This document shows positions 2,064 through 61,663 of a DNA stretch of 64,000 nucleotides, one piece after another. The position numbers and the translations under genes were made by a program. Within the stretch, counting starts at the first letter, position 1, and each line of letters starts with the position of its first letter. The stretch spans positions 45,395,883-45,459,882 of the forward strand of contig OZ024879.1 in assembly GCA_964017185.1 (NCBI GenBank), given 5' to 3'. The notes beneath the pieces were generated by a model. The model saw nothing but the letters and a program-made list of their open reading frames with translations, was not told where the DNA came from and searched no databases. The stretch comes from Rugalucina vietnamica. Its lineage: Eukaryota; Mollusca; Bivalvia; Lucinida; Lucinidae.

Positions 2064-3494
2064 AAGATCGACCGGTTACATAAATATCTCAGGAACTGCG
2101 GAAATATCCTAGCTAAATCAAAGAGCTCGGCTATTTTTAGGCTGTGGAAATGACACAGTTTAAACAAAGGGCGACACGGATATCGGAGGTAAACCGACAG
2201 GGTGAAAGAGGTTCATGTACGATGATAGCCCGACCTATTTCGTGTCATATTTGTATGTTTTTTCTCCGGTATGATAAGTGAATGAAAGTAGTATTTATAG
2301 AGACAGCAAGCAGATAGAGGATATAGCCAGTGTTATATTGGCAAAAGAATTACCACCACAACCACCACCACCACCACCATTTATATGCAGTTGAAACTTC
2401 ATGCTCAGTCGAGTTGATCATAAAGTGTGAAATAGTTTGGTGTAAGTTGAACATTATTGGGTGTAGGTCTTTGTACCTTGGATCATTCTATCGTCCCCCT
2501 AAGTTCCCAACTCAGGAGCTTGAATTGAAATATCTTGAGGATTTTAATACTTCACTCTCTCGGATTATGTCAAATAAAAATGCCCATGTTCTTGTAGGTG
2601 GTGACTTCAATTGTGGTGATATTGAGTGGAGCACAATGCAGGTACCCGAGGGGGTCCCAAAGAGGCCAGTTCAGACTAAACTCGTAAACATAATACAGGA
2701 TCACTGCCTCTCCCAAATGGTAAATATACACACCCGAGAAGATAAGACCCTTGATTTACTCTTCACTAACTCGCCATCCCCAATTAACCGTGTTAAAGGG
2801 ATGCCCCCGATCGGCAAAGCAGATCATGACATTGTCTATATTGAATATGACATTAAGGCTAAACGGATCCAGCAGGCCCCGCGGAAGATTTTTCTGTATA
2901 AACGAGCGGATATGGACGGTCTCCATGACCATCTAGCGCGCTATAGGGATTCGTTCCTTTCAACTGACCATAGTCATGTGTCAGTTAATGACATGTGGGT
3001 CAGTTTCAAGTCGGAGGTTCTCTCGGCTATTTGAAAGGTTTATTCCATTAAAAATGACCAAGACAAAATATAGTTTACCATGGATCGATAGCTCGACCAA
3101 ACGCTTGATTAGGAAACGTGATAAACTTTACTTTCGTGCTCGCAAAGCTAGTAGCCCTGACATTAAGAATTCAGAGCACATGTTCAAAAGAGCATTAGAG
3201 GTGCATATTGGAAGCATGTTACCAATATCTTCTCCTTTGAAGATGATAATCCTGATCCCGATTGTCCCCGAAAAAATGAAAAGGCGAAAAAGTTTTGGTC
3301 ATTTGTCAAGTCCCTTAAAAAAGACGCGTCTGGGATCAATACCCTTAGAGAAAACGGTATCTTGAAGACTGACACCTTGGATAAGGCTAATATTTGTAAT
3401 AGGCAGTTTCAGTCGGCCTTCACTCGCGAATCAAATGATGAAATCCCCTCCAAAGGCACAAGTCCCTTCACCGCTATGGGTGAAGTTACAGTTG

Positions 3495-3534
3495 ACCCCA
3501 AAGGGGTCATTAAGACCCCAAAGGGGTCATTAAA
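3495..3534. repeat. 20-bp tandem duplication breaking the LINE frame
   Basis: The 20-mer at 3495-3514 is repeated with one change at 3515-3534. Twenty extra bases shift the frame between the linker (ending VDPKGVIK) and the RT domain (starting LLNNLNIHKAPG), a clear inactivating lesion. Confidence 0.85.
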
Positions 3535-5000
3535 CTGTTGAATAATTTGAATATACATAAGGCGCCCGGGCCAGATGGCCTGAGTGCTAGGGTGTTGAAA
3601 GAATGTAGTTCTGAAATTGCTCCTGTCCTGACCTATATCTTCAATGAGTCGCTTGCTCAGGGTGCTGTACCAGACGATTGGCGACATGCAAATGTAGCCC
3701 CGGTGTTTAAGAAAGGTGAGAAATATGATGCAGCTAATTATCGACCGGTGTCGCTTACCTGTGTATCTGAGCATATAATCATGATAATAGTCAGCAACAT
3801 AAACAAACACTTGGCTATTGAAAACATTCTTGCTGACTGTCAACATGGGTTCCGAAGTCAAAGGTCTTGCGAAACCCAGTTAGTTCAGTTTTATCATGAC
3901 TTGGTTAGTAATTTGGATCGAGCTGTGAGTCGTGGCCACAGGCAGACAGACGTGATTGTCATGGATTTCGCTAAGGCCTTTGACAAGATCCCACATAAAA
4001 GGTTATTATACAAACTTGACTTCTACGGGATTAGAGGATCTACTCATAAGTGGATCGACTCGTGGCTCTCTGAGCGCTCTCAAAAAGTGGTATTAGATGG
4101 CCGTGCCTCAGATCCAGTCCCGGTTCTATCTGGTGTCCCACAAGGATCGGTCTTAGGACCAGTCCTATTTCTTATTTTTATTAATGATCTTCCTGACAAT
4201 ATCAGGTCATCTGTTCGGCTATTTGCTGATGATTGTGTTTTGTACAGGAATGTCCAGTCACCATTGGATTGTCAAATTTTGCAAGATGACCTGAATAGCT
4301 TGGCCAAATGGGAAATGGATTGGCAAATGAAATTCAATGTTAGCAAATGTCATGCAATGAGGGTGACCCGGCTACATCCAAGCAAGCATATACAATTCAA
4401 TTACACACTGCATCAGCAAACATTAGAACAAGTTCAGTCCGCTAAATACCTAGGTTTAACTACCACAGATGATCTTGATTGGGGCCAACATATTTCCGAA
4501 ATTACATGCAAGGCAACTAAGACGTTGGGTTTTCTTCGGCGCAATTTGGCACTGGCACCTAGGCATACTAAGGAAGTTGCATACAAAACATTGGTTCGGC
4601 TTCAACTTGAGTATGCAGCTCCTATTTGGCATCCCTATAATGAAACTCAGACTGCTAAGGTGGAGAAGGTGCAGAGGACTGCTGCCCGGTGGACCTGCAG
4701 GAGATGGAGGAACACCAGTAGCGTCGGTGAAATGCTAGACGAACTTGAGTGGCCATCCCTGGAGTCCCGCAGGGAGCGTTCCTCCTTAACCTTCTTCTAC
4801 AAGATACACTCCGGTACAGTGTCTCTTGATAAAGACAAATACCTGACCGCGGCACCCGACCTAAGGCGTACTCGGGGATCACATGAATCACAATACACAA
4901 GACCATTTGCCTATAGTGATGCCCTGAAAAATTCCTTTTTCCCCAGAACTATTCCGGTTTGGAATAGTCTCCCCTCTTCAGTGGTCTCATCCAAGACCAT

Positions 5001-5091
5001 TGAGGAATTTAGGGCTTCTATTTAAATCTTAGGCCCTGAGGCATGCTGAGGAATTTAAGGCTTCTATTTAAATCTTAGGCCCTGAGGCATG
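5001..5091. repeat. 46-bp tandem duplication at LINE 3' end
   Basis: The segment covering the RT stop codon and the first 3'UTR bases (TGAGGAATTT...GGCATGC) occurs at 5001-5046 and again at 5047-5091 with few changes. It does not alter the RT frame. Confidence 0.8.
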
Positions 5092-5259
5092 CGTTTTAGT
5101 ATGCCTCTCATCTTTATCTTGTAAATAGATTTAATGGTCCACCCCAAATGTCCCCTTTTCCCTTGACTAAATTCTAAATTCTCATTCTTAGAGGGCTTAT
5201 GTCCCAGTAAGTCCAAGCCCGAGTACTGGAACAGACTCGGCTCCTCAAAATCCAGAAAT

Positions 5260-5491
5260 GTGACACAACAAGAAGAATCTAAGGTAATAATTCAATCTCT
5301 GGTGGAGATGTCTAACTACAATAATTTGATAGTGTTTACAGATGGGTCACGATTAGGAAACCCTGGGCCCTGTGGGTCAGGAGCTTGTATATTTGTACCA
5401 AATGAGACAGAGCCTGTCATGTTGAAGAGACCTGTTACTAACAGAGGCTCAATATTGCTTGGTGAATTAATAGCCAATATTTTTTTTTCTG

Positions 5492-5545
<54 letters not shown>

Positions 5546-6307
5546 AAAAAATAAAGAAAAAAAAAAAAAAAAAAAAAAAGACAATTACATGGTATTACAA
5601 TATTTTCAGATAGTCAATCAGCCGTGGGAATTTTGACCTTAGGATGGGCTGCTACATCCCATAAAAAGGCTGTAGAAGATACTAAACTCCTTATTTCAGA
5701 TTTGGAGAGATCAGGACTTGAAATCAGTATCCAGTGGACACCGGGCCATGCCGATATCAGAGGAAATATTATTGCAGATGATTTAGCAAAAGAGGCTGCA
5801 GAGGAAGCAAAATCTTTCCCAGAAGAAAGTCAGATTCTTACTGGAGCTGATTTTAAGAAATTTGCGAGAGTATCATGTTGCATGAAATGGCAGAGGTCTT
5901 GGGATGCATCTGATACGGGCAGGCATTTGTATGAATACAAGCCAAAGGTCTCTTTGAAAAGCCCAACATATATGTTTATGCCTTTCATAGAAGAAAAAAA
6001 GGTTATTTCACAGCTTAGATTAGGATATACTCTAAATGACTATAGACACAAGATAGGTCTCGAAGAATCTCCGAACTGCACATGCGGTGAGATCGAGACA
6101 GTAGTCCATTTTATTTGTGACTGTGAAGAATATGAAGAGGAAAGACAGAAATTACTAACCCAGATGTTCTATCTTACTGGAGCACAAGTTATTAGTGCAG
6201 AAATCTTCCTCAGCTTGAAAGAAGAAATATTCAAAGAGCACAGAGAATCACTCTTAATGTTGCTTAGTGAGTACATCACAAGCACAAAGAGGTTTCTCAA
6301 AAAATAG
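5260..6307 (+). pseudogene. LINE RNase H plus zinc-knuckle fragment, poly(A) interrupted
   Basis: The first part (5260-5490) reads FTDGSRLGNPGPCGSGACIF and then GELIANI, the first Asp and the Glu of an RNase H active site. After an A-rich tract the frame resumes at about 5590 with GITIFSDSQSAVGIL (second Asp), WTPGHADIRGN and ADDLAKEA (last Asp). A C-terminal region follows with CTCGEIETVVHFICDCEEY, the Cys/His finger found at the ends of RNase-H-bearing LINEs. The upstream LINE already ends with its own C-terminus, so this is probably a separate 5'-truncated LINE inserted beside it. About 14 residues between GELIA and ITIFSDS seem replaced by the A tract. The stop is at 6305-6307 and an ATT-rich tail follows at 6483. 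Confidence 0.8.
5492..5579 (+). repeat. A-rich tract inside RNase H frame
   Basis: About 88 nt of nearly pure A with two short T interruptions lie between two halves of the RNase H domain. It may be the tail of a lost retroposon, slippage expansion, or an assembly fault at a homopolymer. Confidence 0.9.
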
Positions 6308-15525: not shown

Positions 15526-18500
15526 TTTGAAAACCGCTCGACTATGGCTGACAAATAGTCATGGTGCCAGTTGGGATATGCAGACGCCCAATCAGTTGTA
15601 CGGAAAAGTTACAGGCAACTGATGTAGCCAGAAGCAAAGCTCATTAGAGCTTATGTTTATTGTTATTTACTGTCATATTTTACCTTATCTCATAAAAGCA
15701 TAGTCGAAGAGCCGGGCACAAAGTATACCTAGACGCACACAAAAAAAGACACAAACTGGACAAAACTCGACGACAAAACAAACAAGAACGCCGCGGAGGT
15801 CGATATCGCACCTGCATTGGGCAAAATAACTAAAAACGTGATATATATGTCAAGGGCACCAGGTCAAGGTGTGCTCTGAAAGGGTCTAGGTTTCATACTT
15901 GCAGCGAAAACAACGCAGCATAGCTCACCTGGCGAGTTACATTCCACAAACGACGAGCACGAAGTTATTGACTTGACAAACAAACCTACCAAAGTTATAC
16001 ATACACCAACATTATTAGTTGGCAGCTCAATCTTAAAAAGGGTCAAAACCAGTGACCTAAACCCAAACGTAGCAATAAAAACATTCCCAGGGGCAACATT
16101 TGATTCCATCAAAGACAGCCTGTCTGATTACGATATAAGCAAATGTAACACCATCATTCTGCATGTTGGCGGGAATGATGCCGACAGCGGCGCCGACATT
16201 GAAACTTTCTGTGACAGTTATGTGTCGTTGTTAGAAGACCTCCAGACGGACGACCGTCGTCTAGTAGTGTCGGGACTTCTTCCCAGAGGGAGCGTTGACC
16301 TCGAACCATACAATAACAAACTTAAAGCTGTATGTGCTGAAAATGACTTGGAATTTATAAATTACTATGATAGTTTTTTGCTGGCTTCAGGTGACATTCC
16401 CGATGCATACTTTCATAAAGATAAAACTCACTTAAACATGTCGGGAACTAGAAAGTTTTTAATGAATATAGATTCCGTATGTAAGGTACGAAATGTGATG
16501 CATCCGGTGAATCGAAATGAGCATGGTAATCGATCGGTAAAAGGTTATCAAGGTCCGAGTACAGGCAGAAGGGCTCCTCCACGTGCAGGACCCCGATATT
16601 CTCAGAAATACTGCCATATATGTGCCATGAAAAATCATTCAACTAAGGAATGTTGGTTCAATGGAGGGGACTCTGGGATACCGAACTCATATTCCGGTTA
16701 GGATTTAGCAGAGCGTATGAAACTGACATCGTCCATGACGGACAACTTAATTTCTTATCCTACGCTAAATTCTGATGAAAGTTGTTGTGTCTATACATCT
16801 CGAAAAGCTCAGCATCCGGGGGCACCTGCCACTGCACATTCTGAAAATACGGATGCTTGCTCTTCTAATTCGAAAACCATTGATCCTACCTGTTTGAAAG
16901 AAAATCAAGTACGTCCAAACAGTTTAATGAGACTTAATTTCACGTCAAAAGGTCTGCACATGTGCAATCTGAATGTTCAACATATCCTTCCAAAACTAGA
17001 TGAACTACGTGTATTATTAGCAGACAATGCCGGTCCGGATATTTTTTGCGCATGCGATTTTGCGATTTTTGCGACAGAGCCTGTAATTTTGGAAAACCAG
17101 CTAGCGATCGATGGTTTTGAATTTTTTCGAAAGGATAGAGCAGCGACTCAAAATAAAACTGGAGGTGGGTTGATTATGTATTTTAAAAACTCCTTTGTTT
17201 GTGCACGACGCACAGAGTTTGAAATATCAAATTTGGAAACCATTTGGGCAGAAGTTAAGCTTCCAAATGCGAAGCCTTTCCTGTTGCGCACAGTTTACCG
17301 TCCCTCAAATGCTAAGAGCGAATGGGTTGACTTGTTTGAGGAGGAGCTTTCCATAGCTCAAACGACCGGCCTTGAATATATAGTAATGGGCGACTTTAAT
17401 ATTGATCTGTTATCAAACATTCCGAGAACGAAATGGTCAAATATGATACAGCTATTTGACCTTACTCAGCTCATCACGAAACCAACCCGCATTACGCAAG
17501 CTACGGCAACATTGATTGACCATGTCTACACAACGTCTCCTGACAATATATCCGAAAGTTTTGTATCAGATTTATCTGTCAGTGATCATTTTCCCATATG
17601 CATAACCCGTAAAGTTGGTGTTAAAAAGTCCAAAGATACTCACATTTCCACCATATATCGCTCATTTAAACATTTTAATGAAAATCAATTTCTGCATGAA
17701 CTTTCGCTAGACTTAGAGAGTTTTACCCCTTTCCATGAAAGTATCGAAGATGATTTTAGTACATGGTTCTCAATAATTTATAAAACTTTAAATGAACATG
17801 CTCCCCTGAAAAATAAAAGAGTAAAACATAAGAGATTGCCAGAATGGTTTACACCTGATATAAAAGAAATGCAACATAAACGAGATTTAAGCAAACGTTT
17901 GAAACAATGGGAGGACTACAGAAAATTTCGAAACAAAACAAGACAATTAATAAGGCAAGCAAAACGCAAATACTTCTCTGATACAGTTGATAATAGCAAA
18001 GATACTAAAGCAATATGGAGACATTTACGGTCAGTCAGTTCCGGAAAAAAAAAACATGCAAACAAATCACCTCCCAGTCGAACTTAATGTAAATAATGAA
18101 CGCATAATTGATTCAACAAAAGTTGCATCTAAACTAAATGAATTTTTGCTTCAGTGGCAGAGCATTTTGAAATGGAAAGTACGGAATTATCTATCTATTA
18201 TTAATCTATAAGATTAAAGCTTTTTGTTGATTCTAAAGTCCCTACCAGCACTAAGTTCTCTATTCCATACATAACCAGTGATCAAGTGTTGCACTATATC
18301 AATAAACTAGATTCATCAAAAGCTACTGGGTTGGATGGCATCGGGCCAAAGATTATTAAACTTGCAGGTAGCTGCTTATCGCCATCCATTGCTGAACTTA
18401 TCAATAAAAGTATAACTTTAGGACAATTTCCATCCCAACTTAAACAGGCAAAAATATTCCCAATTTTTAAAAGTGGGTCTTAGACAGACCCGTCAAATTA

Positions 18501-21500
18501 CAGACCTATCTCGATATTGCCTACGATATCCAAAATTTTCGAGAGACATGTTAATAAGCACTTAATGGGGTTTTTAAATAAACATAAACTTTTATTAGAA
18601 ACTCAGTCTGGATTTAGACCAAAGCATAGTTGCCAAACGGCTTTAATTAGACTGATTGATACCTGGATGGAATGTATCGACAAAGGAGACATAATAGGCG
18701 CACTCTTTCTTGACTTCCGCAAAGCGTTCGATCTAGTTGATCACAGAATCCTACTTGATAAGCTTGCACTATATAATTTCAGTAACTCTTCTCTTAAATG
18801 GTTTGACTCATATCTACATGACCGTCAATAGGCTATGCAAGGCCAACACGGATTAACGGAATTTTCAAAAATACTGTCTGGCGTACCTCAGGGTTCCATT
18901 TTAGGCCCTACTCTTTTATTTATTAACGATTTACCATTAAATTTTGAATTTTGCTTATCAGACCTTTACGCTAGCGCTGATGACGCGACAGCTCATACTA
19001 ATGGCAAGGAAGTCGATACCGTCGAATATAAAATACAAGGAGACTTTGGTAATGCTAAACATTGGAGTAAACGGAATAATCTTCCAATAAATTATAAAAA
19101 ATCCACCTGCATGATGTTAGGCACTAGGAATCGACTTATAGAAGCGCGTAAATTTAACATTAAAGTAGATGACATTTGTTTACAAAATGTCTCAACACAA
19201 TCAGTATTAGGCTTGCATATTGATGAGCACCTTACATGGTCAATTCATATAGATCACTTATGCTCAGCCATCTCGAGTAAGATTTCGCTTCTAAAACAAT
19301 TAGCAGAGTACGTACCAGTAGACGTACAAAAACGTTTTTACCAAGGTTATATTGTACCATTGATATATTACTGATCCGTCACTTGGGGAGCAGCCTCAAA
19401 GTATAATATAGAACGGGTATCGAAATTACAAAAACGCGCCGCCAGGATAATATTAAAAGCTGATTTCGACACATCATCTGATGATATGTTTCAAAATCTC
19501 AACTGGCCTTCAATAGAAAAAAGACTTAAATATAATAAGGCAGTGCTAACATACAGAGCTCTCAATAAACAAACTCCGGACTATATTTCAAGTTTATTAA
19601 AACCTTTATCTGAAACTCATTCATTGAATTTAAGATCTTCAGAAAATAAATGCCTACATATACCACGATCACATACTACTCTTTATGATAACTCTTTTAC
19701 ATGCTCGGCCCCGAAGCTATGGAATGCTCTTCCTCAAACAGTCAGAGAAGCAGAAACTCTTTTAACTTTTAAAAAACAACTAAAAATGTTCTTGAAATCT
19801 AAACATTTTAAATAATCTTTTAACAGTGCTACATTGTTTGTAAAACATTCCCTTATCTTTTAAAGAAAATGTTCCATGTTATATCTGTCACATATTTTAA
19901 AGAATATATTTTATGTTTTATGCGCTCGTTTTGCACACATATTTTGTATATTATGTATCTAGTTGTAATGTTGTTATTTTAAGAGGACCGCAAGGTAGAA
20001 TAGCTTCAGCTAATTGTGTTATCCTATATAAACATTGTACAATTAAATAAATAAATAAAACTATGCAAGGTTTGAGACTCGCAGCTATCACTGATGTCGA
20101 GAAAACTAAACTTTGACGTAAAATTTGCCAAAGTCAGTGGACTGTGAAATATAGGTGAAGGTCAGCGGGTCAAGGTGTGTGCTTGAAGGGTATGTCAAAG
20201 ACAATAACTATGCAAGGTTTGAGACTCGCAGCTATCACTGATGTCGAGAAAACCAAACTTCGACGTAAAATTTGTCAAAGTCAGAGGACCGTGAAATAAA
20301 GAGCAAGGTCAGCAGGTCAAGGTGCGTGCTTGTAGGATATGTCAAGGACAATTACTATGTAAGGTTTGAGACTCACAGCTATCATTGATGTCGAGAAAAC
20401 CAAACTTCGACGTAAATATTGACGGACGGACGGACGAACGGACGGACGAACGAACGGACGGACAGAAATTTGGACTCCTATATCGCACCCTGCTATAAGC
20501 AGGTGCGATAACAAAACCACGACAGGAAGAACGGTCTGTAATATACATATGCCATTTATTCATATCCCCAAGGGATAAGCTTTAACACTACATACATTAC
20601 CCTGCAATTACTTGTCTGTGATTTTTATTTTAATGTTTATGTTATTCTCGCTGTCCACAAATTAAACCAAATAAATCCCTTTGAAGACTTGAAAGCTTGT
20701 AATGTAGGGAATTATCTGTTTGATTAGTTCTTAGCAATGTGTACAGTAAGCAGCAGCACGTGGCAAAAGTGTATATTTGAGCTCGGAAAAATCTCGGTAG
20801 TTGCTTTTCACGAAATGACGATTTAAACCATCCGTTTTTATGGATATGCATGTATATCATATGTGCAATGTAATCATCTAAAATTCAATTGACCAAAACG
20901 TATGTGTTTATTTTGAAATGGAAACGCGTTTTATGGACATTTCTTTCTGCATGTCAGTTTATCTCATGTTTTTACATACATTGTAAACTGAGAGAGAACA
21001 AATAAACTTGGAAACTTGGACAAAATCCTTCACTTGATGAGTATTTTTGTAATATTGTGATATAGTGGCATTAAATCAGCTTCATGATTTGTGAACTTGT
21101 GAACTTGATAACCTTATTCCAATCAACCAAATGAATGTGTTCACTTTTCGTTATTTCCCATAGTTTAGATACAAATAGGGGCAACTTCTTTCATCATATT
21201 TGTTTTGCCAACCAAGAAAACAAATATCTATTGTCCTTACACCATCTTTCAGAAACCGCCTTTTTGAAAACCACACTTGTTGTGTTAGGTTAAACAGTTT
21301 TGGGCATAAATTAAAATTGTTATTAGTGTACCGATTTCCAATTTTTCAGTGGCATTTTAGAGACTTCTGGAATGTAAAATAATGAGAGGGTCAGATATTT
21401 CCTTAGGTGTTTTAGAAAAGTGTGATATTGAAAAACGGTAGTTTCTGAAATATGGTGTAAGGACAGTAGACCTACTAACTTACTCTGATAATTAAAGCGG

Positions 21501-37220: not shown

Positions 37221-38184
37221 TTTTAATCTTACAGCCCCTCCCCCCTCCCCAATAATAAAAATCAAATGGTCGTTTCCTTACGCAGGTGATTCTTTGTGCA
37301 GTCGGTCTGCATCGCGAACAAAACATGCTGTCTGGATTTCTAGTCTAGTTGACATATTCCTGTTAGATATCTCTGTTTACGCAACATTAAAGCTGTGTTT
37401 GAAATTCAATGTTAATCAAACAGGTGAAAGTTAAACTCATAAAACATCAACAACAAAACAAACAAACAAACAAACAAACAAAAATGAAAATAACCAATGC
37501 ACAGCCCATGATTACCAGCTCTTAACTGCAAAAATCTGGAACCAGTTACGCCATTATCGACTTAGAACATGTATTTGTTTTCGATTGACGCCAATATCCA
37601 GAACGTAAGTTATACGTCGTATACATGTACACAGTTTTTTTTTTAACACTTTTTCTATCTGAAATGGTAAACTGTGTGTAAGTCTTGTTTTATAAAGAAG
37701 TAATGAAGCTACAAACTCAAAATCATAACGCAATAGCGCCATAGAGTGTCCTGTTTAAAAATTATCGCAAGTGATTCGGTACTGGATAAATGATTCGGAA
37801 CTGGATAAATTGGTGGTCTGCTTCAAAGCCATCGTGTGGCCCACAGAATATTCACGATTAATCAGACTAAAGTTCATTATTTAGAAGAAGGATTATACTT
37901 TCTAATGGTAAGGTCATAACCTAGTTTGCTGTGAGCAATTATCTGGAAACCACTTCGAAAAAAAAGTGACCCGGAACTGGATAATTTACTGTAGTATAAT
38001 TCTTCTTCTTCTTAAATCCAATTTCAAGCGTCTAGCTTTTTTCTTTAGCACAGGCCGGTTTGAGATGGACCTGGTAGGAAACCCCGAAGACCCGTTTTCT
38101 CGGGTCGCGGCTAATATATACAGTGATAGAAAGAGATGTTCTAAGTTTATGGCTATTTGTAGTTTTCGTGGTTTTCAAATGAAA

Positions 38185-38215
<31 letters not shown>

Positions 38216-38236
38216 CAAGCAAATTCAAAGAATTTA

Positions 38237-39173
38237 TGTCCCCCGCCTTGATTGTTTAGTTACACAAATATAATCTGAGAAGCCACATGAACTTTCTAAG
38301 TGTAAATGCCCAAAAAATGACTCAGTTCAAATTGCGAAAAAGTGCTAACAATTAAGCTGAGGATTATATGCAAACCATATGCGTATCTTCAAAGCATTAT
38401 AAAGACAACTGTAAAGTTTCAAAAAAATCAGAATGAAACTGTAGGAGGAGTTGCGCACAAGAGGTACCCCCTGTCCATTCACTTTCATTGTCAAAATGAC
38501 CGAAAAATGACTTAGTTCAAATTGCGAGCAAAAGTAATAAAAAATAATCTGAGTAGCATATCCAAACCACATGCATATCTTCAAAGCCTGGTAAAGACAT
38601 CTGTAAAGTTTCAAAAGAATAGGAATGAAACTGTAGGAGGATTTGCGCACACAAGGTACCCACTGTCCATTCGCTTTCATTGTCAAAATGCTCGAAAAAT
38701 GACTAAGTTCAAATTGCAAAAAAAAAGTGTGAAAAATTAATCTGAGGATTATTTCCAAACCACATGCATATCTTCAAAGGATGGTAAAAAACATCTGTAA
38801 AGTTTCAAAAGAATCGGAGTAAAACTGTAGGAGGAGTTGCGCACACAAGGTATCCACTGTCCATTCGCTTTCATTGTCAAAATGCTCGAAAAATGACTAT
38901 GTTCAAATTTCGAAAAAAGTGTGAAAAATTAATCTGAGGATTATATCCAAACCACATGCATATCTTCAAAGGATGGTAAAAAACATCTGTAAAGTTTCAA
39001 AAGAATCGGAGTAAAACTGTAGGAGGAGTTGCGCACGAAAGGTACATACTCTATAGGGGGACGGAAGGACGGAAGGACAGACGGACGGACGGACGCACGG
39101 ACAGACGGACGGACGGAATGACGGAAAGCCAAAAACTATGTCCCTCCGCTTTTCTTCGAAAAGGCGGGGGACA
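38237..39173 (+). mobile_element. HINE-like element, four core units (U1)
   Basis: The terminus TGTCCCCCGCCTT is inverted at the right end (AAGGCGGGGGACA). Core units of about 192 bp are marked by CTGTAAAGTTTCAAA at 38409, 38601, 38795 and 38987. A GGAC/GGAA microsatellite follows (39058-39122), then a 3' hairpin CCGCTTTTC / GAAAAGGCGG. No coding. U3 lacks the element at the matching site (about 57930). Confidence 0.8.
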
Positions 39174-39378
39174 AAAAGGTTGATTCTGTATGTGTGGCTC
39201 CCATCTATTTATTTAGATTCCGGCCACAATCGATCGTTTGGTACATGTAGCTGCATCAAATTGCGATGCATATTATCTAGAGAACAGCATTTGGAAACAT
39301 TTCTACAGTCTTTCAACCTCTCCCACTGATTTCTCAGTTACATTTAAACACTGAATTCTATGCTTTAAGTACTGGTTA

Positions 39379-49098: not shown

Positions 49099-49336
49099 TA
49101 TGAGCCTTCGCAAGTGAAAACCAACAATCTACATATGCGAAAACTAAGACGCAGATCACTGAGCTGTGCAGAAACTACACATCTGATCTGATCAAGGCTG
49201 TTTTAGCTTACCAGATAGTATAATTCTTCTTCTTCTTAAATCCAATTTCAAGCGTCTAGCTTTTTTCTTTAGCACAGGCCGGTTTGAGATGGACCTGGTA
49301 GGAAACCCCGAAGACCCGTTTTCTCGGGTCGCGGCT
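49099..49336 (+). mobile_element. MITE-2 copy, uninterrupted (U2)
   Basis: GAGCCTTCGCAAGTGAAAAC to CGGGTCGCGGCT, with ACAGGCCGGTTTGAGATGG. It provides the empty site for the element at 35329. Confidence 0.8.
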
Positions 49337-49433
49337 AATATATACAGTGATAGAAAGAGATGTTCTAAGTTTATGGCTATTTGTAGTTTTCGTGGTTTTC
49401 AAATGAAAAAAAAAAAAATAAAAAAAAAAAAAA

Positions 49434-49472
<39 letters not shown>

Positions 49473-49493
49473 CAAGCAAATTCAAAGAATTTA

Positions 49494-50235
49494 TGTCCCC
49501 CGCCTTGATTGTTTAGTTACACAAATATAATCTGAGAAGCCACATGAACTTTCTAAGTGTAAATGCCCAAAAAATGACTAAGTTCAAATTGCGAAAAAGT
49601 GCTAACAATTAAGCTGAGGATTATATGCAATCCATATGCGTATCTTCAAAGCATTATAAAGACAACTGTAAAGTTTAAAAAAAATCAGAACGAAATTGTA
49701 GGAGGAGTTGCGCACAAAAGGTACCCCCTGTCCATTCACTTTCATTGTCAAAATGACCGAAAAATGACTAAGTTCAAATTGCGAGCAAAAGTAATAAAAA
49801 TTAATCTGAGTAGCATATCCAAACCACATGCATATCTTCAAAGCCTGGTAAAGACATCTGTAAAGTTTCAAAAGAATCGGAGTAAAACTGTAGGAGCAGT
49901 TGCGCACACAAGGTATCCACTGTCAATTCGCTTTCATTGTCAAAATGCTCGAAAAATGACTAAGTTCAAATTGCGAAAAAAGTGTGAAAAATTAATCTGA
50001 GGATTATATCCAAACCACATGCATATTTTCAAAGAATGGTAAAAACATCTGTAAAGTTTCAAAAGAATCGGAGTAAAACTGTAGGAGGAGTTGCGCACAA
50101 AAGGTACATACTCTATAGGGGGACGGAAGGACGGAAGGACAGACGGACGGACGGACGCACGGACAGACGGACGGACGGAATGACGGAAAGCCAAAAACTA
50201 TGTCCCTCCGCTTTTCTTCGAAAAGGCGGGGGACA
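49494..50235 (+). mobile_element. HINE-like element, three core units (U2)
   Basis: Same ends (GTCCCCCGCCTT / AAGGCGGGGGAC), core markers at about 49669, 49858 and 50049, the GGAC microsatellite and the 3' hairpin. It is one core shorter than its paralogue at 38237. Confidence 0.8.
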
Positions 50236-50440
50236 AAAAGGTTGATTCTGTATGTGTGGCTCCCATCTATTTATTTAGATTCCGGCCACAATCGATCGTT
50301 TGGTACATGTAGCTGCATCAAATTGCGATGCATATTATCTAGAGAACAGCATTTGGAAACATTTCTACAGTCTTTCAACCTCTCCCACTGATTTATCAGT
50401 TACATTTAAACACTGAATTCTATGCTTTAAGTACTGGTTA

Positions 50441-58935: not shown

Positions 58936-58943
58936 ACTACGGC

Positions 58944-61655
58944 GGCTCAAGTACAGTATTGGGGACCCTCCCCACAAAAAAACCGACACCATACACTTTT
59001 TCAAACCTATGAATCACACATTCGATATATTCTCTGGGCAGGTCGGCAGGTCGGCACTAGTAAGACAGATCTAAATATAGATATATATTTATATGCATAG
59101 CCATATACTTAAATTGGTGCCGACCTGCCGACCCGCCGACCTGCCGACCTGCCCTCCTACCGGCAGATCCCCATGCCCATACGTTGCAATATAATATATT
59201 CGGGAGGTCGACAGGTAGGCAGGCATATGTCCATCCAGCAGGGTTATTATCAATGCCCGATATGGAGTATCTATTCTTTTGCCGGGGGTCTGGGGGGCTT
59301 GCCCCCCAGGCGTCGTCTAATGACAGGGCCACTACCAAAAGATGGCGTCGACTTCCGACCAGTGCCGGTAAGTCGGCAGGTCGGCAGGTCGGCACTTAGA
59401 CAGATCTAAATATAGATATATATTTATATGCATAGCCATCCGACCAGTGCCGGTAGGTCGGCAGGTCGGCAGGTCGGCACTTAGACAGATCTAAATATAA
59501 ATATATATTTATATGCATAGCCATATACTTAAATAGGTGTCGACCTGCCGACCTGCCGACCTGCCCTCCTACCGGCACATCACCATGCCAATACGTTTCA
59601 ATATGGTATATTAGGGAGGTTGACAGGTCGGCACTAATAAGACAGATCTATATATATATATATATTTATATGCATAGCCATATACTTAAATTGGTGCCGA
59701 CCTGCCGACCCGCCGACCTGCCGACCTGCCCTCCTACCGGCAGATCCCCATGCCAATACGTTGCAATATAATATATTCGGGAGGTCGACAGGTTGGCAGG
59801 CATGTGTCCATCCAGCAGGGTTATTATCAATGCCCGATATGGAGTATCTATTCTGTTGCGGGGGGGGGTCTGGGGGGCTTGCCCCCCCAGGCGTCGTGTT
59901 ATGACAGGGCCACTACCCGAAAATGACGTCGACCCCTGGCCAACATACTGGTGCCGACCTGCCGACCTGCCCTCCTACCGGCACATCACCATGCCAATAC
60001 GTTTCAATATAATATATTAGGGAGGTTGACAGGTAGGCAGGCATGTGTCTATCCAGCAGGGTTATTATCAATGCCCGATATGGAGTATCTATTCTGTTGC
60101 AAGGGATCTGGGGGGTTTGCCACCCCCCCCCCTAGGCGACGTGTTATGACAGGGCCACTACCCGAAAATGGCGTCGACCCCTGGCCAACATACTGGTGCT
60201 GACCTGTCGATCTGCCGACCCACCCCATATTCATACTTTATAATGTATATGTAGGCCCATATTAGTGCCGACCTGCCGACTACATCTTCTTGGTTTGATT
60301 ACAGTTAATCTTGTTGACATCACCGAATATTTTATACCCTTACATAGCCACATACTTAAATTGGTGCCGACCTGCCGACCTGCCGACCTACAGGTAAATC
60401 CCCAATTCCAAAACTTTGTAATATATATTTAGGTCCATATTAGTGCCTCTATCAGCTGTTAGGTCGGCAGGTCGGCAGGTCGGCACTAAGACAGATCTAA
60501 ATATATATATATAAGCATAGCCATATACTTAAATTGGTGCCGACCTGCCGAGCTGCCGACCCACCCCTTATTCATACTTTGTAATGTATATGTAGGCCCA
60601 TATTAATGCCGACCTGCCGACCTGCTGATCCCCCTACTATATTGCTCTTGGTCTTTGTATATGTGAGATGGCGTCGACCCCGGCCAACATACTGGAGCCG
60701 ACCTGCCGACCTGCGGACCCACCCCATATTCATACTATAGGCCCATATAAGTGCCGACCTGCCGACCTGCCAACTTGCCCCCAGGCGTCGTGTAATTACA
60801 GGGCCACTATTGCAAGATGGCGTCGAAACCCAACCAACAAACTAGTGCCGACCTGCCGACCCACCCCTTATTCAATACTGTGTAATGTATATGTTTGCCC
60901 ATATAAGTGCCGACCTGCCGACCTGCCGACTACATCTACTTGGTAAAATGGCCATTGAGTTATTATGGATAATATTTTTTTAAGTGCCGACCTGCCGACC
61001 TGCCTACTATATTGTTCAGGTTCTTTGTATATGAGAGGGCATATATCTCAAAATGGCCATTGAGTTATTATGAGATATATATATATTTATATATTTAAGT
61101 GCCGACCTGCCGACCTGCCGACCTGCCGTCCTAACAACTCATAGTTACTGTATTATAGTTATGAACACTATGTCAGGTATATTTATATACTGATGAGATC
61201 AAATAAATACGTGGCAAGTTGTCGAGCTGCCGAGCTGCGTTGTGTTTACAATGTTGCATTTTATTAGCCAGTGTCGATCTGTAAGTCACATATGTGTTGT
61301 CTATTTTTAGCTTGATGTATGTTCTTAGTCATTTATTTAGTAGATCTTCTGAGTACTCAGTCTCTTTTTAAAATGGAGGACATGTTTGTATGTATATGGA
61401 GTATACTGTAGTATATTGGAGTATTATTGTATTTAGTTGATGTACATTGTTATATTGTCTGAGTGTTTCCGCATTGTATGTGTGTGTATTATATAGTAGA
61501 TAAAAGGTAGTAGGTATGGCCTACATATATATAGCACATATAGTAGATATGTTATATAGTAGATAGATGGGTATAGCCTCTAGGCTAGTATGCTAATATC
61601 CATTATATCTGTATGTTGTCATATTGTCTTGGGTCCCCAATACTGTACTTGAGCC
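58944..61655. mobile_element. 2,712-bp TIR element with GCCGACCT inverted arrays
   Basis: Perfect 25-bp terminal inverted repeats begin GGCTCAAGTACAGTATTGGG. Exact 8-bp target duplicates ACTACGGC lie at 58936-58943 and 61656-61663. Paralogous sites (for example 44902) read CCACTACTGC without an insertion. The interior is dominated by runs of GCCGACCT and its complement AGGTCGGC, arranged as many facing pairs around short AT-rich linkers such as AGACAGATCTAAATATA. No transposase frame. An 8-bp TSD is known for hAT, P and Merlin; GG-starting ends would suit Merlin, but this is open. Confidence 0.88.
59036..61250. repeat. GCCGACCT / AGGTCGGC array
   Basis: Short runs of one to three octamers recur at irregular spacing (for example 59119, 59369, 59460, 59538, 59695, 59953, 60361, 60466, 60539, 60752, 60848, 60909, 60985, 61100). 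Strand alternates, forming potential stems. Larger units of 250-300 bp containing GGGTTATTATCAATGCCCGA and a G/C-rich GGGGGTCTGGGGGGCTTGCC palindrome recur at about 59240, 59815 and 60058. Confidence 0.9.
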
Positions 61656-61663
61656 ACTACGGC

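Follow-up and report, generated by a model that had tools for sequence, protein, structure and literature searches.

A modular, non-autonomous transposon family with octamer runs between its internal modules in the bivalve Rugalucina vietnamica

In a stretch of 64,000 nucleotides of Rugalucina vietnamica DNA (64 kb; hereafter the window), we found an element of 2,712 bp (positions 58944-61655) that belongs to a dispersed transposon family, in which the terminal inverted repeats (TIRs) and target site duplications (TSDs) agree at many genomic sites. Its interior consists of recurring modules of about 45-155 bp, which are joined by runs of an octamer and are repeated and rearranged between copies. 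With a probability of roughly 80%, we consider this to be a non-autonomous family of cut-and-paste DNA transposons, probably Merlin-like, with a composite minisatellite interior.

First, the window copy was examined. The copy begins with 5'-GG (GGCTCAAG...), and its two TIRs were the only matches to GGCTCAAGTACAGTATTGGGGACCC in the window at up to three mismatches (0 expected from 100 shuffles). With a cut-off of 80 aa, three ORFs of 83-112 aa were found, none of which had a Pfam match at E of 1 or below; the window copy has no transposase gene. Rfam gave no match inside the element and a single tRNA in the whole window, a tRNA-Thr gene (anticodon ggt) on the minus strand at 1769-1840. The original prediction of a mobile insertion without coding was borne out by the perfect 25-bp TIRs, the exact 8-bp TSD ACTACGGC, the many genomic sites and the ORF analysis. 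The positions of the features are given in Table 1.

Table 1 Features of the window copy (positions are those of the window)
Feature	Position	Strand	Remark
Left target site duplication ACTACGGC	58936..58943	.	exact match to the right one
5' terminal inverted repeat, 25 bp, GGCTCAAGTACAGTATTGGGGACCC	58944..58968	+	
5' subterminal stretch	58969..59039	+	common to octamer-free or octamer-poor relatives L049, L062, L068
Modular region: modules A, B, C, D, F, G, H, K and 24 runs of GCCGACCT/AGGTCGGC	59040..61236	.	
Module A example, AT-rich, predicted hairpin	59056..59118	+	flanked by octamer runs 59040-59055 (reverse) and 59119-59150 (forward)
Module D example, about 54 bp	59151..59204	+	again at 59563-59624, 59728-59781, 59969-60030
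Module B example, about 150 bp	59221..59369	+	again at 59798-59952, 60039-60197
Module C example, about 45 bp	60222..60266	+	again at 60390-60460, 60563-60607, 60863-60908
3' region without octamers	61237..61630	+	pairwise median difference 3.8% over the 370 bp next to the TIR, 35 copies
3' terminal inverted repeat, 25 bp	61631..61655	-	perfect match to the 5' TIR
Right target site duplication ACTACGGC	61656..61663	.	

Elsewhere in the window, two stretches (38077-39300 and 49301-50362) were 93% identical over about 800 bp, and in each, tandem repeats of 192 bp precede a GGAC microsatellite; we take them to be reminiscent of pearl/HINE elements. Retrotransposon-like ORFs, reverse-transcriptase-like by eye, were seen at 2327-6304 and 15880-19812.

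Subsequently, the host genome (1.09 Gb, 47 contigs) was searched with the TIR. At up to three mismatches, 88 + 77 = 165 matches were observed, against 0 + 0 for the reversed control. An exact TSD of 8-9 bp flanked 35 of the 39 complete copies; these 35 represent about 27 independent sites. The original prediction had staked itself on further copies with agreeing ends and TSDs, and such copies were indeed found. The tally started from 41 loci, of which seven were dropped since no second end was recognisable in the fetched stretch; 30 of the remaining 34 had an exact TSD of at least 8 bp, and four of four further copies and L019, the far end of which is L054, were added. Duplicates were counted once, namely L022, L029-L033 and L038, which share GCCCGTTT, and L016 and L020, which share AAAACATG; L021 and L023, both in CAGA repeats, were also counted once, which gave 27 sites. 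The exceptions were L011 and L012, with swapped flanks, L013 (7 of 8 bases matching) and L040 (6 of 8). The TSD of L017 is 9 bp long, and two TSDs sit in a CAGA microsatellite. A weak symmetric motif, VAAWWTTB, was noted post hoc among 26 distinct TSDs; this set includes the right copy of the L013 TSD and leaves out L011, L012, L017, L019 and L040.

Mismatches in the TIR amounted to 0.6% per site over 76 ends, a value biased low because the copies were picked by similarity and TIR. The outer 24 bp of the TIR had no exact match in two non-eukaryote collections (viral_contigs and genome_contigs). The missing transposase gene, the ends shared by many copies and the TSD mark the family as a non-autonomous TIR element. 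One mini copy, L049, is 298 bp long and has the same ends, almost no interior and an exact TSD; it is inserted in a 51-bp tandem array, in which filled and unbroken units lie side by side. A separate element, L051 (C3:9300689-9301219), shares the outer 24 bp; its TIRs measure about 78 bp by eye, its interior is another one and a TSD is lacking. It was left out of the copy and TSD counts; similar ends were seen at C1:50027906, C1:73569634 and C8:62624114.

The octamer GCCGACCT occurred exactly 40 times in the window (29 forward and 11 reverse), all inside the element at 59040-61124, with 0.42 (sd 0.68) expected. When one mismatch was allowed, 56 octamers in 24 runs covered 448 of the 2,712 bp, and the last 419 bp contained none. 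The interior had been described as an array of inverted octamers; both orientations stand, but the octamers cover 16.5% of the copy and form the joints of a modular interior. When 38 complete copies (including two mini copies) were split wherever an octamer run with up to one mismatch occurred, 684 stretches resulted, and those of at least 25 bp were classed. They fell mainly into a few classes, besides rarer ones and the 3' end: module A (186 stretches, median 60 bp), B (146, median 149 bp; formed by single linkage, so that the class also took in some 5' ends), C (146, median 53 bp) and D (100, median 54 bp). Labels of inverted B in 20 of the 38 copies hinted at inversion of whole modules; this was rejected, as B was direct in all 34 copies holding it when matches of at least 60 bp were scored, and the labels reflected an inverted 59-bp end piece of B, as checked in L021 and L024.

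In the window copy, four of six A modules have a reverse octamer run on one side and a forward run on the other, an arrangement able to form a hairpin. Folding of the element as single-stranded DNA gave -440.3, compared with a mean of -322.9 (sd 10.0, z -11.8) for 19 dinucleotide shuffles and with -325.5 to -393.6 for four further stretches of equal length from the window. This computed stability is consistent with the original suggestion that the interior could fold into stems.

We then compared copies that descend from one insertion. Five copies on contig C13 (L029-L033) are duplicates of a single insertion, with flanks 96.9-100% identical where aligned; for the left flank of L029, 351 of 900 bp could be aligned with the other four. 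Their 10 pairs, which are non-independent, differed by 4-12 substitutions (0.18-0.52%) and 3-8 indels each. Exact octamer units (8 or 16 bp) made up 31 of the 58 indels, and 27 lay in C/T homopolymers or AT-runs; five pairs with the more distant L022 were excluded, and the longest indels were displayed in part. Since duplicates of one insertion differ by whole octamer units, the octamer number changes in place. The octamers act like a minisatellite mutating in place, as observed in one duplicate group of one assembly, and the runs would gain or lose whole units probably by slippage. The suggestion that the octamer is amplified by the element's own replication is not supported by this result.

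A protein, either the transposase or one of the host, could also bind the octamer runs, and selection would then maintain them because more sites make transposition more efficient. For the internal TIR repeats of Galileo and Tetris, a functional binding role is suggested in the available text of PMC4079207. In the present family, the string TGCCGACCTGCCGACCTGCC occurred 189 + 147 = 336 times in the host genome (control, 0), and by eye, none of the 100 places listed was farther than about 3.2 kb from a TIR place. Octamers in both orientations were present in 35 of 38 copies (the exceptions being L044, L049 and L050), and 24 independent copies held 17-42 exact units each. Furthermore, a cousin (L068+L075) contained a run of four octamers with module matches of about 75% identity. 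These observations agree with binding; the cousin shows that this layout predates the present family. However, the octamer columns were no better conserved than those of the adjoining module, with values of 0.934 and 0.932 for D (69 stretches), 0.932 and 0.938 for A (96 stretches) and 0.866 and 0.889 for C (87 stretches), and this argues against a selected binding site. In addition, the runs are internal and do not adjoin the TIRs, and the mini copies L049 and L050, with one octamer or none, have exact TSDs. The protein-binding idea, which the original prediction had also raised, thus appears quite unlikely, and we prefer the minisatellite reading. Beyond its octamer part, L075 carries what is presumably a HARBI1-like fragment.

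The runs may also be joints at which modules are exchanged. Among the 24 independent copies, 31.4% of alignment ends (30.1% of distinct ends) fell in octamer runs, which occupy 20.1% of the positions of the modular part; within 3 bp of the runs, the values were 47.4% (distinct, 42.3%) and 26.3%. This enrichment of about 1.6-fold lends moderate support to the view that shared octamer runs are sites where recombination would duplicate and rearrange modules. As alignments tend to extend through shared octamers, the enrichment is weak as a proof of recombination at the runs.

Amplification of a satellite seems to account for part of the copy number. With 1,262 bp of the flank of L012 as probe, ten places were matched on contig C12 at 100%, spaced 3,230-3,247 bp apart, and at least 39 places on nine other contigs at 80-94%, partly in tandem; the tally is a lower bound, as 40 of 2,065 candidates were scored. 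The site GCCCGTTT or its reverse complement was found at L022, L029-L033, L038, L059 and L060, and some satellite matches were interspersed with the GCCCGTTT copies on C13; on C16 they came to about 3 kb from L038 and L022, and on C5 they were 5-15 kb away from the ends L060 and L059. Seemingly, some insertions beside the 3.2-3.4-kb tandem satellite were amplified along with it.

A different arrangement was observed at C12:2752161-2789138 (L011, L012, L078-L080), where two element copies, 98.2% identical, enclose 32,398 bp. This corresponds to ten tandem units with a mean of 3,239 bp plus the 8-bp TSD. The inner flanks of the pair carry GGGGTGGC and the outer flanks TTATTTTC, and each of three fetched stretches agreed with the empty inner site that had been predicted in all 121 bases compared. 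Either a circle made up of ten units and one element would have recombined into the element at the outer site, or the two outer ends would have moved 37 kb together; both fit. No Rfam match at the gathering score was found at the L011 and L012 loci, and the unit of about 3.24 kb had no ORF longer than 95 aa. For maize Ac, composite insertions after alternative transposition are described in the accessible part of PMC4270019, and the inside of those described there is not a tandem array of integer units. It is a tentative and rather doubtful extension that the octamer runs act as recombination joints for module exchange and that the element, in addition, allows whole tandem arrays to be taken up and settled elsewhere.

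As for the superfamily, we infer from the TIR and TSD that Merlin is the best fit. Merlin is defined in the available text of PMC8101967 by 5'-GG, TIRs of 24-462 bp and TSDs of 8-9 bp, and the present copies have GG ends, a 25-bp TIR and TSDs of 8 or 9 bp (exact in the 35 of 39 above). A DDE transposase encoded elsewhere would accordingly recognise these TIRs. The hAT superfamily, which has 8-bp TSDs with T at position 2 and A at position 7 and ends in CA, was disfavoured: T2/A7 occupied 8 of 52 TSD cells compared with 28 of 52 for A2/T7, and the ends are GG.

Domains of candidate transposases were counted in the host genome and placed relative to 117 positioned TIR places (100 listed of the 165, plus 17 from further searches). 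The Merlin domain PF12762 (DDE_Tnp_IS1595) had 56 matches, the nearest at 174 kb; the MULE domain PF10551 had 59, the nearest at 987 kb; and the P domain PF21787 had 20, the nearest at 492 kb. Hence, no Merlin, MULE or P domain lay within 173 kb of these places, and the proposed genome search with TIR and octamer defined the TSD set but yielded no autonomous partner near them. The partner may lie at one of up to 65 other TIR places, be much diverged or be lost. The single Merlin locus read, L076 (C8:8609500-8611500), has an ORF of 359 aa for a Merlin-like transposase; its inverted repeat is a different one, and the family TIR is absent from it. In molluscs, one analysis finds Merlin almost restricted to cephalopods and another counts 63 elements, with three consensus sequences in a curated library (PMC10294476, available text), so that Merlin is present but rare.

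TIR pairs at distances of 4.6-6.4 kb served as partner candidates, and none was retained. L047 holds a nested retrotransposon, the ORFs of which we take to be endonuclease/RT-like, and L048 other nested repeats; the pair on C6 is L019+L054. The pair on C10 was read from 6518500 onward (L037). L016 (4.9 kb) has retrotransposon-like ORFs alongside and a 2.8-kb stretch inside. In the first 1.2 kb of the octamer-free relative L062+L077, no ORF reached 90 aa.

The family might instead belong to the Mutator (MULE) superfamily or be a Tetris-like foldback element. TSDs of 8-9 bp fit this as well, as do the 59 MULE domain matches and the relative L051 with its longer TIRs behind the same outer 24 bp. 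On the other hand, the TIRs of the family are just 25 bp rather than long, the inner repeats are asymmetric about the element centre, and the nearest MULE match is 987 kb from a positioned TIR place; we regard this assignment as improbable, though to be kept in mind. Far less probable still is a satellite-bearing Helentron of the HINE or pearl-like kind, such as those of oysters. The Cg_HINE Helentrons are of the rolling-circle type, with no TIR and no TSD, and to our knowledge Helentrons and pearl elements have neither, whereas perfect or near-perfect TIRs and exact TSDs were found in 35 of 39 copies here. The point in its favour is that central tandem repeats are carried by such a mobile element (PMC7492417, available part).

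Several known systems resemble this family in part, as far as the accessible texts go. Cg_HINE Helentrons of the Pacific oyster (PMC7492417) are likewise non-autonomous and have spread short satellite-like arrays in a bivalve genome. Galileo, of the P superfamily (PMC4168063), shares strong structural variation, internal direct tandem repeats and TSDs of 7-8 bp, but has the TSD consensus GTATTAC and long TIRs, neither of which is seen here. Merlin elements (PMC8101967) have in common the 5'-GG ends, a TIR range (24-462 bp) that includes 25 bp and TSDs of 8 or 9 bp, and tandem repeats lie inside some Symbiodinium Merlin copies; the present family differs in having no transposase, and an autonomous Merlin with these TIRs was not found among the loci examined. 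By analogy, the nearest precedent in behaviour is Tetris of Drosophila virilis (PMC4079207), a modular non-autonomous TIR element with many rearranged forms and internal tandem repeats. Its TSDs are 8-10 bp, its partner was not found, a mini relative (DAIBAM) has the same ends, and the repeat number differs between alleles of one insertion. In contrast to the 25-bp TIRs and the two-orientation octamer joints between several module types in the interior of the present family, Tetris has TIRs of up to 1,735 bp with repeats of about 220 bp within them (foldback), and feeds a satellite.

No mention of the octamer or TIR strings was found in the literature searched, in line with the original remark that no such interior had been described; Tetris is nevertheless close in kind in the available text of PMC4079207. 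We therefore consider the family an unusually modular non-autonomous TIR element that is new, with known relatives in kind. The family provides a natural setting for distinguishing transposition, repeat change in place and recombination from one another: same-site duplicates show the in-place octamer change, and independent insertions share the ends. The C12 locus points to a way in which a transposon could disperse whole satellite arrays, and the octamer-jointed, multi-module interior joins the few elements that link transposons and satellites, namely Tetris, Galileo and the HINEs.
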